Shown here: one piece after another, positions 28,635-44,581 of the stretch
How the letters are laid out: every line of letters starts with the position of its first letter
How positions within the stretch are numbered: the stretch's first letter is position 1
Made by a program: the position numbers and the translations under genes
NCBI RefSeq assembly: GCF_021271205.1
Contig: NZ_JAIWKS010000002.1
Coordinates: 248,001 to 312,000 of the forward strand
DNA from: Pseudomonas uvaldensis
GTDB taxonomy: Bacteria > Pseudomonadota > Gammaproteobacteria > Pseudomonadales > Pseudomonadaceae
Direction of reading: 5' to 3'
Length of the DNA stretch: 64,000 nt
Notes under the pieces: generated by a model
What the model was told of the DNA's origin: nothing
Seen by the model: the letters and a program-made list of their open reading frames with translations, nothing else
The model's database searches: none

Positions 28635-28647
28635 TACTAAAGTCGTA
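28635..28647. promoter_or_regulatory. Recurring 13-bp element (TACTAAAGTCGTA) before the CXXCW gene
   Basis: TACTAAAGTCGTA has a TAC-N7-GTA dyad and keeps the positions invariant among the other six sites. It sits about 80-95 bp upstream of the CXXCW/agmR transcript start codon. Confidence 0.4.
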
Positions 28648-28689
28648 AAAATGAGTGGAGGATCATGGATCCATCGACATGCGCGAATT

Positions 28690-28780
28690 TGTGGGAGCGG
28701 GCTTGCTCGCGAATGCGGTGTGTCAGCTAACGACCGATGTCACCTGATCCACCGCTTTCGCGAGCAAGCCCGCTCCCACA
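28690..28780. repeat. REPIN
   Basis: TGTGGGAGCGGGCTTGCTCG and its inverted partner ending GCCCGCTCCCACA lie between the ABC permease stop and the CXXCW promoter, with a spacer of about 40 bp. Confidence 0.87.
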
Positions 28781-28799
28781 CGGAATTAGAGGCAAACCG

Positions 28800-29591
28800 T
28801 CAGCCAGCCTTGCGCACCGCCGCATGCTGCGGATTGAACGTCCACACCGCCAGCAGCGCGAAGACCAGGGTCAAGCCGGCACAGACCGTCATCGCCAGCA
28901 AATTGAATTGCCCATACAGGGCAAAGCGCACCAGTTCCACGCCATGGGTGAACGGATTCACCGCGCAAAGCCAATACAGCCAGGGGCTGGCCTCAAGCAT
29001 CTTCCACAGCGGATACAGCGCCGAGGACAGGAAAAACATCGGGAAGATCACGAAGTTCATGACCCCGGCAAAGTTCTCCAATTGCCGTATGGCATTGGAC
29101 AGTAGCAACCCCAGGGCGCTGAGCATCAGGGCCACCAGCAACAGGGCCGGCAGCGCCAGCAACAGGCCCATCGCTGGCGGCTGGACGCCGTACAACCAGG
29201 CAATGGCGAGAAAGGCATAGACCTGCAACAGCGAGATCAGCGAAGTCGCCAGCAGTTTGCTCGCCAGAAGGAAGGCGCGGGGCAGGGGGCTGGTCAGCAG
29301 GACGCGCATGCTGCCCATCTCCCGGTCATAGACCATCGACAACGACCCCTGCATGCCATTGAACAACAGGATCATGCAGGCCAACCCCGGCACGATGTAT
29401 ACCTCGTAAGGAATGTAGGTGTCGTAGGGCGCGATGATGGCGATGCCCAATGCCGCCCGGAAACCCGCAGCGAACACCAGCAGCCACAGCAACGGTCGGA
29501 CCAGAGCACTGAGCAGGCGCGTGCGTTGCAAGACGAAGCGCAGCCATTCGCGCATCACGATGCCGCGCAAACACTGCCAGTACGCGTTCAT
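28800..29591 (-). CDS. PQQ-associated ABC transporter permease (ABC-2 type)
   Basis: This 263-residue inner-membrane protein has six predicted helices and the ABC-2 signature region YDREMGSMRVLLTSPLPRAF, followed by AVNPFTHGVELVRFALYG. It is the permease of the small efflux-type ABC system conserved in ped/exa loci. In P. putida the corresponding genes have been linked to alcohol handling. The start overlaps the ATPase stop by 4 bp. The substrate is unknown; a volatile alcohol, aldehyde or cofactor has been suggested for the family only by context. Confidence 0.88.
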   Translation of the reverse strand: MNAYWQCLRGIVMREWLRFVLQRTRLLSALVRPLLWLLVFAAGFRAALGIAIIAPYDTYIPYEVYIVPGLACMILLFNGMQGSLSMVYDREMGSMRVLLTSPLPRAFLLASKLLATSLISLLQVYAFLAIAWLYGVQPPAMGLLLALPALLLVALMLSALGLLLSNAIRQLENFAGVMNFVIFPMFFLSSALYPLWKMLEASPWLYWLCAVNPFTHGVELVRFALYGQFNLLAMTVCAGLTLVFALLAVWTFNPQHAAVRKAG

Positions 29592-30319
29592 GGGTGGGCT
29601 CCCACAGCGGTCAATCGATTGAAGGCTGAGCCCAGGGTTCCGCCGTACTCCAGGCTAATGACCTCGGCGGGACCGCTGGCGACGAGGCGGCCCTGATGCA
29701 AGATCAACAACGTATCGCTGGGTTGCACTTCATCCAGCAGGTGGGTGGTCCAGAGCACGCTGATGCCCTGTTCGCGGCAGAGTTGGCGAACGTGTTGGCC
29801 GAGGGCCTGGCGGCTGGCCGGATCAAGGCCGACGCTGGGTTCGTCCAGCAGCAACAGACGCGGCTCGTGGAGCAGCGCCCGGGCGATTTCCACCCGGCGA
29901 CGATGTCCACCGTTGAGATTGCGCACCCGTTCGTGGCGCCGTTCGGTCAGTTCCTGACGGGCCAGCTCAGTGTCGATCCGGACGCTGCCCTCGCGTCGGG
30001 ACAGGCCATGCAGCGCGACGTGATAACGCAGGTTCTGCTCCACGCTCAAATCCAGGTCCAGGGTGCTTTGCTGGAACACCACGCCCAACTGGCGCAAGGC
30101 CGGGCGGGGCGAGGTTTGCAAAGAGTGACCGCCGACGCGGATCTCGCCGCATTGCACGTCATAAAGGCGCGTGAGCAGCGCGATCAACGTCGACTTACCC
30201 GCTCCATTGGGCCCCAGGAGCGAGGCGAATTGCCCGGCGGGCAGGCTGAAATCCAACTGCCGGAGAGCGTCGCGTGTACCGTAGGCGAAGCTCAGGTCGC
30301 TGACCTGCAAGGCGTTCAT
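29588..30319 (-). CDS. PQQ-associated ABC transporter ATP-binding protein
   Basis: This 243-residue ATPase has Walker A LLGPNGAGKSTLI, Q-loop VFQQSTLDLDLS, a degenerate signature NLNGGHRRRVEIA (NGGHR instead of SGGQ), Walker B RLLLLDEPSVGLDP and the switch histidine in TTHLLDE. It belongs to the exporter group that pairs with ABC-2 permeases. It overlaps the beta-propeller gene upstream and the permease gene downstream by 4 bp each, so the three form one translation-coupled unit. Confidence 0.9.
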   Translation of the reverse strand: MNALQVSDLSFAYGTRDALRQLDFSLPAGQFASLLGPNGAGKSTLIALLTRLYDVQCGEIRVGGHSLQTSPRPALRQLGVVFQQSTLDLDLSVEQNLRYHVALHGLSRREGSVRIDTELARQELTERRHERVRNLNGGHRRRVEIARALLHEPRLLLLDEPSVGLDPASRQALGQHVRQLCREQGISVLWTTHLLDEVQPSDTLLILHQGRLVASGPAEVISLEYGGTLGSAFNRLTAVGAHP

Positions 30320-42662: not shown

Positions 42663-42881
42663 GTTGAAGCAGAGCAGGGCGCTGTCTCTGTGGTGAGGCG
42701 GCAAGCCTTGCTCCCACAAAACAACAGCACCAGCACCAGCTTTCAGCATTCCCACCCAAAAACCTACGACCAAATAACGAGAGCCCCACTGCCAACGACG
42801 CATTCGTCCGCCGCCTGGGGCTCTCTACCATCGGCCTATCGCCTGTCCCGTGACAGGCATCGACCAGGCAGAGGCCCAATC

Positions 42882-44402
42882 ATGATCTACGCACAACCCG
42901 GAACCCCAGGCGCCGTCGTTTCCTTCAAGCCGCGCTATGGCAACTTCATCGGCGGCGAATTCGTCGCGCCGGTCCACGGGGAATATTTCACCAACACATC
43001 GCCGGTCAACGGCGAAGTGATCGCCGAATTCCCGCGCTCCAGCGCCGCCGACATCGACAAGGCACTGGACGCGGCTCATGCCGCCGCCGATGCGTGGGGC
43101 AAGACCTCGGTCCAGGACCGTGCCCTGGTGCTGCTCAAGATTGCCGACCGCATCGAGCAGAACCTGGAAGTGCTCGCGGTCAGCGAAACCTGGGACAACG
43201 GCAAGGCCGTACGGGAAACCCTCAATGCCGACGTGCCGCTGGCGGCTGATCACTTCCGTTATTTCGCCGGTTGCATCCGGGCGCAGGAGGGCGGGGCGGC
43301 CGAGATCAACGAGTTGACCACGGCTTATCACTTCCACGAGCCGCTGGGCGTGGTCGGGCAGATCATCCCGTGGAACTTCCCGCTGTTGATGGCCGCCTGG
43401 AAACTCGCACCGGCCCTGGCGGCAGGCAATTGTATCGTGCTCAAGCCGGCGGAGCAGACGCCGCTGTCGATCATGGTCTTTGTCGAATTGATCGCCGACC
43501 TGCTGCCGGCCGGTGTGTTGAACATTGTCCATGGTTTCGGTCGCGAAGCAGGCGAAGCCCTCGCCACCAGCAAGCGCATCGCCAAGATTGCCTTCACCGG
43601 CTCCACCCCGGTGGGCTCGCACATCATGAAATGCGCGGCCGAGAACATCATTCCGTCCACTGTGGAACTGGGCGGCAAGTCGCCGAACATCTTCTTCGAA
43701 GACATCATGCAGGCCGAGCCGGCTTTCATCGAGAAGGCAGCCGAGGGCCTGGTGCTGGCGTTCTTCAATCAGGGCGAAGTCTGCACCTGCCCATCCCGCG
43801 CCCTGGTGCAGGAGTCGATCTACGACGAATTCATGCAAGTGGTGATGAAGAAAATCGAGCAGATCAAACGCGGTAACCCGCTGGACACCGAGACCATGGT
43901 CGGCGCCCAAGCGTCCGAGCAGCAATACGACAAGATCCTTTCGTACCTGGACATCGCCAGGGAAGAGGGCGCCGAACTGCTCACCGGCGGCGCGGCCGAG
44001 CGCCTGGAAGGTGACCTGTCGAGCGGTTATTACATCCAGCCGACGCTGCTCAAGGGCCACAACAAGATGCGCGTGTTCCAGGAAGAAATCTTCGGCCCGG
44101 TAGTGGGCGTGACCACCTTCAAGGACGAAGCCGAAGCCTTGGCGATTGCCAACGACAGCGAGTTCGGCCTCGGCGCCGGCCTCTGGACCCGCGACATCAA
44201 CCGCGCCTACCGCATGGGCCGGGCGATCAAGGCCGGCCGTGTGTGGACCAACTGCTACCACCTGTACCCGGCCCACGCCGCGTTCGGTGGCTACAAGAAA
44301 TCCGGGGTCGGCCGCGAAACCCACAAAATGATGCTCGACCACTACCAGCAGACCAAGAACCTGCTGGTGAGCTACGACATCAATCCGTTGGGGTTCTTCT
44401 AA
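42882..44402 (+). CDS. Aldehyde dehydrogenase (ExaC/PedI-like)
   Basis: This 506-residue NAD-dependent aldehyde dehydrogenase starts [13 protein letters not shown] at 42882, the length of P. aeruginosa ExaC. It has the cofactor segment [17 protein letters not shown], the catalytic Glu in VELGGKSPN and catalytic Cys in [12 protein letters not shown], and the C-terminal [12 protein letters not shown]. It oxidises acetaldehyde and other aldehydes made by the quinoproteins to acids in the cytoplasm. A frame from 42690 would add 64 residues of leader and was rejected. A REPIN follows the gene. Confidence 0.92.
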
Positions 44403-44423
44403 ACTGAAGCCACCCCAGACTCT

Positions 44424-44512
44424 TGTGGGAGCGGGCTTGCTCGCGAAGGCGGCAGTGCATCCACTCATTCAGTGACTGACCGACCGCTTTCGCGAGCAAG
44501 CCCGCTCCCACA
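44424..44512. repeat. REPIN
   Basis: TGTGGGAGCGGGCTTGCTCG and the inverted arm ending GCCCGCTCCCACA lie between the aldehyde dehydrogenase stop and the pqqA promoter. Confidence 0.87.
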
Positions 44513-44562
44513 TAGGGTTTGGGTAACACCTGAAATCACTACCAACGCACCCCACCCACCGC

Positions 44563-44581
44563 TTCGAAAGTAGCATTCGAA
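44563..44581. promoter_or_regulatory. Recurring 13-bp element (TTCGAAAGTAGCA) upstream of pqqA
   Basis: It lies 65-83 bp before pqqA. The 12-mer AAGTAGCATTCG is identical to the nosP copy, and TTCGAA flanks it on both sides. Confidence 0.5.

Follow-up and report, generated by a model that had tools for sequence, protein, structure and literature searches.

The ped (exa) gene cluster of pseudomonads matters for alcohol oxidation, for the use of lanthanides and for synthetic methylotrophy; what is known of its regulators comes from mutants. The ethanol-oxidation regulon of the response regulator AgmR, also called PedR1 or ErbR, is described in two papers (PMC12997753, PMC13390443), and the dependence on AgmR of many of the genes treated below is already published: in strains without PedR1, expression of pedE, pedF, pedI and pedS2R2 drops strongly (PMC13390443), and the pqq operon is reported to be AgmR-controlled (PMC12997753). 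A second response regulator, PedR2, activates pedE and takes part in the repression of pedH (PMC6115532). Outside the cluster, the acetate regulator CrbR (ErdR) has a published in vivo requirement at acetate promoters and is associated with the ACTU motif, for example TACTACCATCGTCGAAT at positions -52 to -36 of acs (PMC5715377). Here we analyze a ped (exa) cluster in a stretch of 64,000 nucleotides from Pseudomonas uvaldensis (contig NZ_JAIWKS010000002.1, positions 248,001 to 312,000), referred to as the window, in which an initial annotation made from the letters alone had marked seven copies of a 13-bp element ahead of ped genes, pqqA and nosP, the gene of a nitric oxide (NO) sensor. We argue that these elements are probably operators of AgmR, arranged as pairs of boxes at a fixed distance from the -10 hexamer.

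The seven 13-mers are real regulatory DNA. They lie on the plus strand at 23418, 28635, 32566, 37565, 37587, 40767 and 44563, exactly as annotated, with C3, A6, G8 and A13 invariant throughout and with a shared 14-mer, TACCAAGGAACTAG. They divide into two classes, distal (28635, 32566, 37565 and 40767) and proximal (23418, 37587 and 44563), which occupy different places in a common frame. Read in the orientation of the gene, this frame comprises a distal box with a TACCAAGGTA-like dyad, a 17-bp, TACCAAAGTAGCATTCG-like proximal box 21-23 bp away, a further 19 bp and the -10 hexamer; the proximal box, which begins 36 bp before the start of the -10 hexamer, thus reaches into the place of the -35 element, as the ACTU motif does. 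The unit is thus not one TAC-N7-GTA dyad, as the best copy had been described, but the pair of boxes at a fixed distance from the -10 hexamer, with a symmetrical core TAC-N4-GTA. The single 13-mer was rejected as the unit because distal and proximal boxes differ and specificity is found only in the pair together with the -10 hexamer. In the window, the promoters of a porin gene, of nosP, of the unit formed by a PP_2666-like gene and agmR (hereafter the agmR unit), of pedF, of pedI and of pqqA fit the frame by matrix score, and those of pedH, pedA1 and pedS2 fit it by spacing:

22022-22085, plus strand: porin (PP_2662-like) promoter, overlooked in the initial annotation; distal box from 22022, proximal box 22044-22060, -10 hexamer GATAAT 22080-22085; composite score (see below) 15.6
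23396-23459, plus strand: nosP-pedS1 promoter; distal box from 23396, proximal box 23418-23434 (the annotated 23418 site), -10 hexamer TACACT 23454-23459
28582-28647, minus strand: PP_2666-like/agmR promoter; distal dyad 28635-28647 (annotated), ACTU-like proximal box with a GTC half 28623-28607, -10 hexamer TGTAAT 28587-28582
32512-32607, divergent: pedA1 (minus strand) and pedS2-side (plus strand) promoters; two apparently shared boxes, geometry assigned by inspection
37565-37628, plus strand: pedF promoter; distal box 37565-37577, proximal box 37587-37603, -10 hexamer TAAGAT 37623-37628
40767-40830, plus strand: pedH promoter; distal box 40767-40779, weak proximal box around 40790, -10 hexamer AAGAAT 40825-40830, 58 bp after the distal box
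42768-42831, plus strand: pedI promoter, also overlooked; distal box from 42768, proximal box 42790-42806, -10 hexamer TACCAT 42826-42831
44540-44604, plus strand: pqqA promoter; distal box from 44540, proximal box 44563-44579 (annotated), -10 hexamer ATTAAT 44599-44604

The site at 28635 belongs to a minus-strand promoter, and the one at 32566 appears to be used in both directions of a divergent promoter: TACCAAGGTAGTA at 32566-32578 is proximal for pedS2 and distal for pedA1, while TACTTTCTGC, on the minus strand from 32553, is proximal for pedA1 and distal for pedS2, the corresponding -10 hexamers being TAGGAT at 32602-32607 (+36) on the pedS2 side and TATGCT at 32517-32512 for pedA1. Of 48 pedS2 upstream regions, 39 contain TACCAAGGTAGTA unchanged, and the dyad was found in all 46 pedA1 upstream regions.

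For the upstream regions of orthologues from 80 PedE loci, which we aligned, the boxes are among the best-conserved stretches ahead of pedF (81), pqqA (54), pedI (58), the agmR unit (55), pedA1 (46) and nosP (9). The pedS2 alignment stops short of the pedS2 box of the window, and 27 of the 80 rows labelled pedH are pedE paralogs, which were removed to give 53 true pedH loci; the pedH rows of the alignment, of the distal-matrix analysis and of the leave-one-promoter-out test still include them. Proximal sites more than five mismatches from the window seed were excluded (1/53 for pqqA, 5/58 for pedI and 5/55 for the agmR unit). With the -10 hexamer sought over the range +26 to +47, its best place fell exactly at +36 in 35/38 nosP, 77/80 pedF, 47/52 pqqA, 53/53 pedI and 35/50 agmR-unit promoters. 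In three promoters kept apart from training, a distal matrix built from four others (pedF, pedH, pedA1 and the agmR unit) placed its best match at -22 or -23, namely in 48/52 cases for pqqA, 52/53 for pedI and 35/38 for nosP. The spacing between distal and proximal box is 22 bp in 75 of 76 pedF promoters, and 21 bp (38/50) or 22 bp (12/50) at the agmR unit; at pedH the distal box stands 58 bp (22+36) before AAGAAT in 52 of the 53 true loci, AAGAAT itself being exact in all 53. A proximal matrix, evaluated by leaving out one promoter at a time, beat all 20 shuffles in 34/38 nosP, 64/80 pedF, 52/53 pqqA and 39/58 pedI promoters. Alignments, held-out spacing and the composite scans described next thus agree on a single NarL/LuxR-type operator family ahead of ped genes, pqqA and nosP that is conserved at orthologous promoters, as the initial annotation had supposed.

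The frame is also rare. A composite matrix was trained on other species, with the window and its nearest relatives (L001-L008 and L081) excluded, and gave scores of 46.2 for pedF, 40.7 for pqqA, 38.9 for nosP, 33.1 for the agmR unit, 29.7 for pedI and 15.6 for the porin in the window, where the next match scored 7.0; the maximum was 10.4 in twelve Markov random sequences of 64 kb and 9.6 in 400 kb of the organism's own genome. Of the genes that the 13-mers had been said to precede, nosP, the agmR unit, pedF and pqqA are among these six best window matches (the assignment to pqqA is right, the solitary pqqA starting at 44646), while pedI and the porin had gone unnoticed. For the porin, the frame exceeds the background maximum of 9.6 in 4 of 12 usable distant loci and scores at least 7.0 in 8, with GATAAT or AATAAT at +36 of the best place in 11 of the 12, the -10 hexamer being part of the score; row L205 was left out of this survey of porin and pqqA loci. 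The paired box of the porin promoter is weaker.

In a further survey of sixteen 20 kb stretches around agmR from other family members, with a composite cut-off of 9, matches stood ahead of the agmR unit in 14, ahead of a recognized nosP in 8 and, in 2 more, were of the nosP type though without a gene label, and pedF and pedI were matched in part of the stretches, where those genes exist. One stretch carrying both nosP and agmR (L206) gave no composite match of at least 9, and another (L204) gave one match (16.8) at no recognized gene. A box resembling TACCAA(A/G)GTAG(T/A)A with TAGCAT or TAGGAT at +36 occurs in 6 of the 16 (L198, L199, L200, L208, L209, L213), and in L199 and L209 the next recognized gene after it is pedR2. 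We also observed that at L199:9110-9140 (genome G135) the agmR and pedR2 promoters face each other, a single dyad being distal for one of them and proximal for its partner.

Patterns for single boxes behave differently from the pair. The annotated sites, scored by leave-one-out, have 0 to 2.2 equally good background positions per 64 kb (from 200 kb), and in a scan of both strands of the window the degenerate union of the seven 13-mers matches exactly these seven places, with 11 matches in 400 kb of the genome, or about 1.8 per 64 kb; as the union was derived from the very sites that it matches, this count is weak evidence. With up to one mismatch, the first 13-mer pattern matched the genome 14 times and its control 17 times, the three exact matches of the pattern all lying in the ped cluster, and the proximal pattern alone, with up to three mismatches, gave 71 matches against 147 for the reversed control, so single boxes cannot define the regulon. 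The closest proximal match outside the cluster, C34:38884, was discarded, having no distal box, no -10 hexamer and a composite score of -0.7. The strict composite pattern with fixed spacing has two exact matches in the whole genome, at pedF and pedI. As to acetate genes, where enrichment had been suggested, the strict composite has just two off-cluster places, each with one mismatch; a related box of the ACTU (GTC) type stands before the organism's own actP (L251).

Several observations weigh against operators of AgmR as the explanation, or against its extent. The loci are related by descent, so that the counts are not independent events. With one mismatch allowed, the strict composite pattern finds five places (nosP and the two off-cluster places join), the same number as its reversed control. 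The proximal-matrix test mostly fails at the agmR unit (10/55), pedH (2/80, 27 of these rows being pedE), pedA1 (1/46) and pedE (2/80), so these four rest on the distal box and the spacing; at the agmR unit, moreover, 14 of 50 promoters have a better -10 hexamer at +47. The pedS2 promoter has a composite score of 2.9, and pedH and pedA1 fall outside the 16 best window matches. In the separate pqq operon (on C45, with its own pqqA) the composite matrix finds nothing above 6.0. At the level of physiology, pedS1 is dispensable for PedR1-dependent induction (PMC13390443), so that the NosP/PedS1 pair would be a target there and not a needed input, and ErdR is required for the exa/pqq cluster in P. 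aeruginosa (PMC8546858), so that CrbR/ErdR could bind some or all of the boxes.

A second, different element separates two of the promoters from the rest. The palindrome CGGGAA-N3-TTCCCG has exactly two copies in the 5.98 Mb genome:

37513-37527: CGGGAAGTCTTCCCG, palindrome in the pedE promoter, candidate PedR2 site; one of the two exact genomic copies
40842-40856: CGGGAAAATTTCCCG, palindrome 17 bp after the start of the pedH -10 hexamer, candidate PedR2 roadblock; the other exact copy

It is exact in all 53 true pedH promoters and present with at most one mismatch in 77 of 80 pedE promoters; at that tolerance it was found in none of the pqqA, pedI, agmR-unit, pedA1 and nosP promoters, and it is absent from the 400 kb of own-genome background. 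One-mismatch versions occur at 31 other places in the genome. A spacing of N4 was considered and dropped in favor of N3, CGGGAA-N4-TTCCCG having no exact genomic copy. The distal box of pedF also faces pedE, and in 68 of 80 loci the pedE palindrome is preceded, at 45 bp, by CCTTGGTA. The published roles of PedR2 as activator and repressor fit a palindrome that lies upstream of pedE and just downstream of the pedH start; PedR2 thus probably uses CGGGAA-N3-TTCCCG, which is likely the operator of the lanthanide switch.

As to the regulator that reads the paired boxes, AgmR is the most likely candidate. Among the regulators tested, PedR1 is the sole requirement of the pedS2R2 promoter, which in E. 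coli responds best when PedR1 is supplied, with some response also when it is not (PMC13390443). The nearest paralog of AgmR in the genome is a response regulator on C23 with 45 percent identity, presumably CrbR/ErdR, and the two share NKQIAY.L...E.T(V/I)KAHV.AI.RKLNV in the recognition region, where PedR2, seventh among the genome's AgmR matches (AgmR itself being first) and 29 percent identical, has TVSNHLTLLKSKLQV. Operators of the NarL family are heptamers, with half-sites that start with TAC and with a recognition-helix lysine in the same place as here, while spacing and pair geometry differ. The initial annotation had named AgmR or PedR2 as the natural binder; the first remains likely, whereas equal candidacy for PedR2 is lost to its differing recognition helix and to the separate palindrome confined to pedE and pedH.

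The alternative that fares best is a refinement of AgmR control in which CrbR takes the ACTU-like proximal box at the agmR unit and the remaining boxes are left to AgmR, a division that we regard as tenable, yet somewhat on the doubtful side. It is suggested by the right half of the proximal box, which is GTC at the agmR unit and GTA, GCA or GAA at nosP, pqqA and pedF. At the agmR unit GTC is found in 51 of the 55 loci of the first set, the other four having GTA; 50 of 50 of those within five mismatches of the seed carry it, the seed itself being GTC, and the five excluded loci comprise one GTC and the four GTA. Among 29 loci across the family the same box has GTC in 17, while GTA in 11 and GCA in one speak against a strict division. 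At nosP (0/38), pqqA (0/52) and pedF (0/80) GTC never occurs, 0/170 in total. The ErdR genetics of P. aeruginosa (PMC8546858) agree with a role for CrbR, and since the proximal box of the agmR unit mostly carries the ACTU GTC half, CrbR may act there; entry of CrbR at the agmR promoter is thus possible. Counting against it, the agmR-unit box of the window ends in GCAT and not in the GAAT of ACTU, pedI has neither GTC nor GTA, and ErdR was not found at the agmR promoter among the AIDmut-Seq results drawn upon here (PMC9927353). A scan of acs/actP regions placed 12 of 43 loci within one mismatch of a pattern that itself demanded GTC, so that GTC as the mark of CrbR rests on the published sites.

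One could also suppose that all of the boxes are ACTU sites and that CrbR/ErdR controls the ped promoters directly. ACTU and the box are indeed alike in the kind of inner dyad and in promoter position (PMC5715377), the presumed CrbR is, as noted, the closest paralog of AgmR here, and 17 P. aeruginosa genes, exaA among them, require ErdR, pqqA and exaB being reduced in the mutant (PMC8546858). The GTC half at the agmR unit likewise favors this reading, but its absence at nosP, pqqA and pedF speaks against it; the pedS2R2 promoter depends on PedR1, despite its partial response without it in E. coli; and the AIDmut-Seq data, in the part used, are without ErdR at the agmR and ercS promoters (PMC9927353). 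We therefore consider direct and general control by CrbR unlikely. That PedR2 binds the 13-bp elements is highly improbable: it is a LuxR/NarL-type regulator of pedE and pedH (PMC6115532), but it has its own palindrome at just these two genes, it is distant from AgmR in sequence and in recognition helix, and the pedS2R2 promoter requires PedR1 and not PedR2 (PMC13390443). Least probable of all is that no regulator is involved and that the boxes are alike by chance or are ordinary core-promoter sequence. Since the proximal box reaches over the -35 place, its conservation could in part be that of the promoter; the distal boxes, however, stand beyond the core promoter and keep a fixed distance, even at promoters that the training set did not contain, and the window scores of 15.6-46.2 compare with at most 9.6 in 400 kb of own genome and 10.4 in Markov sequences.

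What the analysis shows is the sequence of the boxes, their conservation, their spacing and their rarity; the identity of the binder, its cooperativity and its mode of activation are inferred. A regulated promoter would present its two boxes on one side of the helix, separated by two turns (21-23 bp); the proximal one would overlap the -35 place, and the -10 hexamer would start 36 bp after the first base of that box. Activated AgmR would fill both boxes, presumably in a cooperative manner, and would recruit RNA polymerase, possibly as a class II activator. Its predicted targets in the window are the porin, nosP-pedS1, the agmR unit, pedF, pedE by way of the shared box, pedH, pedI, pqqA and the divergent pedA1/pedS2 pair, so that alcohol would raise the NO sensor and its kinase alongside the quinoprotein genes. 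Through CGGGAA-N3-TTCCCG, PedR2 would exert a separate control, activating pedE from an upstream position and forming a roadblock just after the pedH start. More tentatively still, and with the odds in our view leaning the other way, one could speculate about a two-tier code of one geometry, in which the GTC box of the agmR promoter answers to CrbR (acetate state), GTA or GCA boxes elsewhere, including the NO-sensor operon, answer to AgmR (alcohol), and the palindrome serves PedR2 as lanthanide-switch operator, for activation at pedE and as a roadblock at pedH.

The genes at the nosP end of the cluster, and the solitary pqqA, are as follows:

23485-24648, plus strand: nosP, with FIST N and FIST_C domains (Pfam; start chosen by inspection)
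24578-27214, plus strand: pedS1/nahK-like hybrid histidine kinase (Pfam)
27299-27970, minus strand: agmR (pedR1/erbR), NarL/LuxR-type response regulator and proposed binder (Pfam)
44646-44717, plus strand: solitary pqqA, between pedI and yiaY

Of 148 family genomes, 90 encode NosP and 89 encode AgmR, each protein being found in 12 of the 19 genera. Both genes occur together in 88, nosP alone in two (G045, G118) and agmR alone in one (G097), an association that linkage and shared descent weaken. The 38 nosP promoters come from 30 of the 90 NosP genomes and from 8 of the 9 PedE loci with nosP, the upstream DNA of L042 being too short for inclusion. All 38 have the proximal box with at most 5 of 17 mismatches to that of the window, 29 in the form TAC(C/T)NAAGTAG(C/G)AT; in L046 it stands 214 bp upstream of the inferred start, outside 200 bp and within the 300 bp searched. 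In 8 of the 30 genomes nosP and agmR are separated, by about 195 kb in G042 and about 215 kb in G124, and by lying on different contigs in G080, G135, G110, G072, G043 and G052. All eight retain the nosP box (0-4 of 17 mismatches), followed near +36 by a hexamer of the -10 type; the presence of the site at nosP is therefore more than a by-product of the neighborhood. In KT2440 nosP is co-cistronic with pedS1 (PMC12997753). The pedS1 promoter shows about 5-fold induction by (R)-1,3-butanediol, and PedR1 ranks as its activator (PMC13390443). The idea that a site before nosP ties NO sensing to alcohol oxidation thus survives in one direction and as a prediction, that alcohol raises NosP and its kinase by way of AgmR; control of alcohol oxidation by NO is not demonstrated by the nosP site.

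The gene order of the window is porin, nosP, pedS1, agmR, PP_2666-like, pedC, pedB, pedA2, pedA1, pedS2, pedR2, pedD, pedE, pedF, pedG, PP_2677-like, PP_2678-like, pedH, pedI, solitary pqqA, yiaY and a second hybrid kinase. Seven of the proteins were checked against Pfam. A part of the remaining names follows the gene table and section list for KT2440 (PMC12997753). The best four PedE matches in the collection, at 96 percent identity, belong to P. zanjanensis, P. mediterranea and two other Pseudomonas strains, nearer records possibly being omitted from it. Two pqqA genes are present: a paired box precedes the solitary copy of the ped cluster, whereas the copy ahead of pqqB (G000:C45, L144:7180) has none. 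Two intergenic regions, at about 44425-44515 and 32735-32835, are broken by inverted repeats of the GTGGGAGCGGGCTTGC kind that we presume to be REP-like. Between the pedS2-side promoter and pedS2 lies a short open reading frame (about 32614-32915) with a signal-like start (LLLPLLL), the start region being partly conserved in the alignment.

The spacing rule and the two distinct operators would make direct and indirect control separable promoter by promoter. If AgmR is the binder, the paired boxes give it a readable binding code, and a family-wide induction of NosP and PedS1, the NO-sensing pair, by alcohol is predicted. As far as our literature searches tell, what is new is the geometry of the pair, the additional sites and the palindrome distinct from them: no stated AgmR or PedR2 binding site was found in the parts of the open literature covered, and six gene names searched for in the main text of PMC8041468 and PMC13086498 were not found there. 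Set beside the described systems, the targets proposed here share many genes with the AgmR/ErbR/PedR1 regulon, for which AgmR dependence is known or proposed; the portions of PMC12997753 and PMC13390443 used give no binding site or spacing rule and do not make nosP an AgmR target by site. The passages used of the paper on the PedS2/PedR2 switch name no operator, the terms motif, palindrom and inverted repeat being absent from its main text, and the inverse control that the paper describes concerns pedE and pedH, the very two genes with an exact palindrome (PMC6115532). The ACTU motif of Sepulveda and Lupas (2017) differs from the boxes in the GTC right half of its experimentally supported sites, in its single repeat per promoter and in its acetate genes (PMC5715377). 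It resembles them in being an inverted repeat with an inner (T/G)AC-N4-GTC, in its position from -52 to -36 of the acs start and in its LuxR-type regulator (PMC5715377), and several acs/actP sites show, by eye, a -10-like hexamer 35-37 bp after the inner dyad, much as in the paired boxes of the ped cluster.

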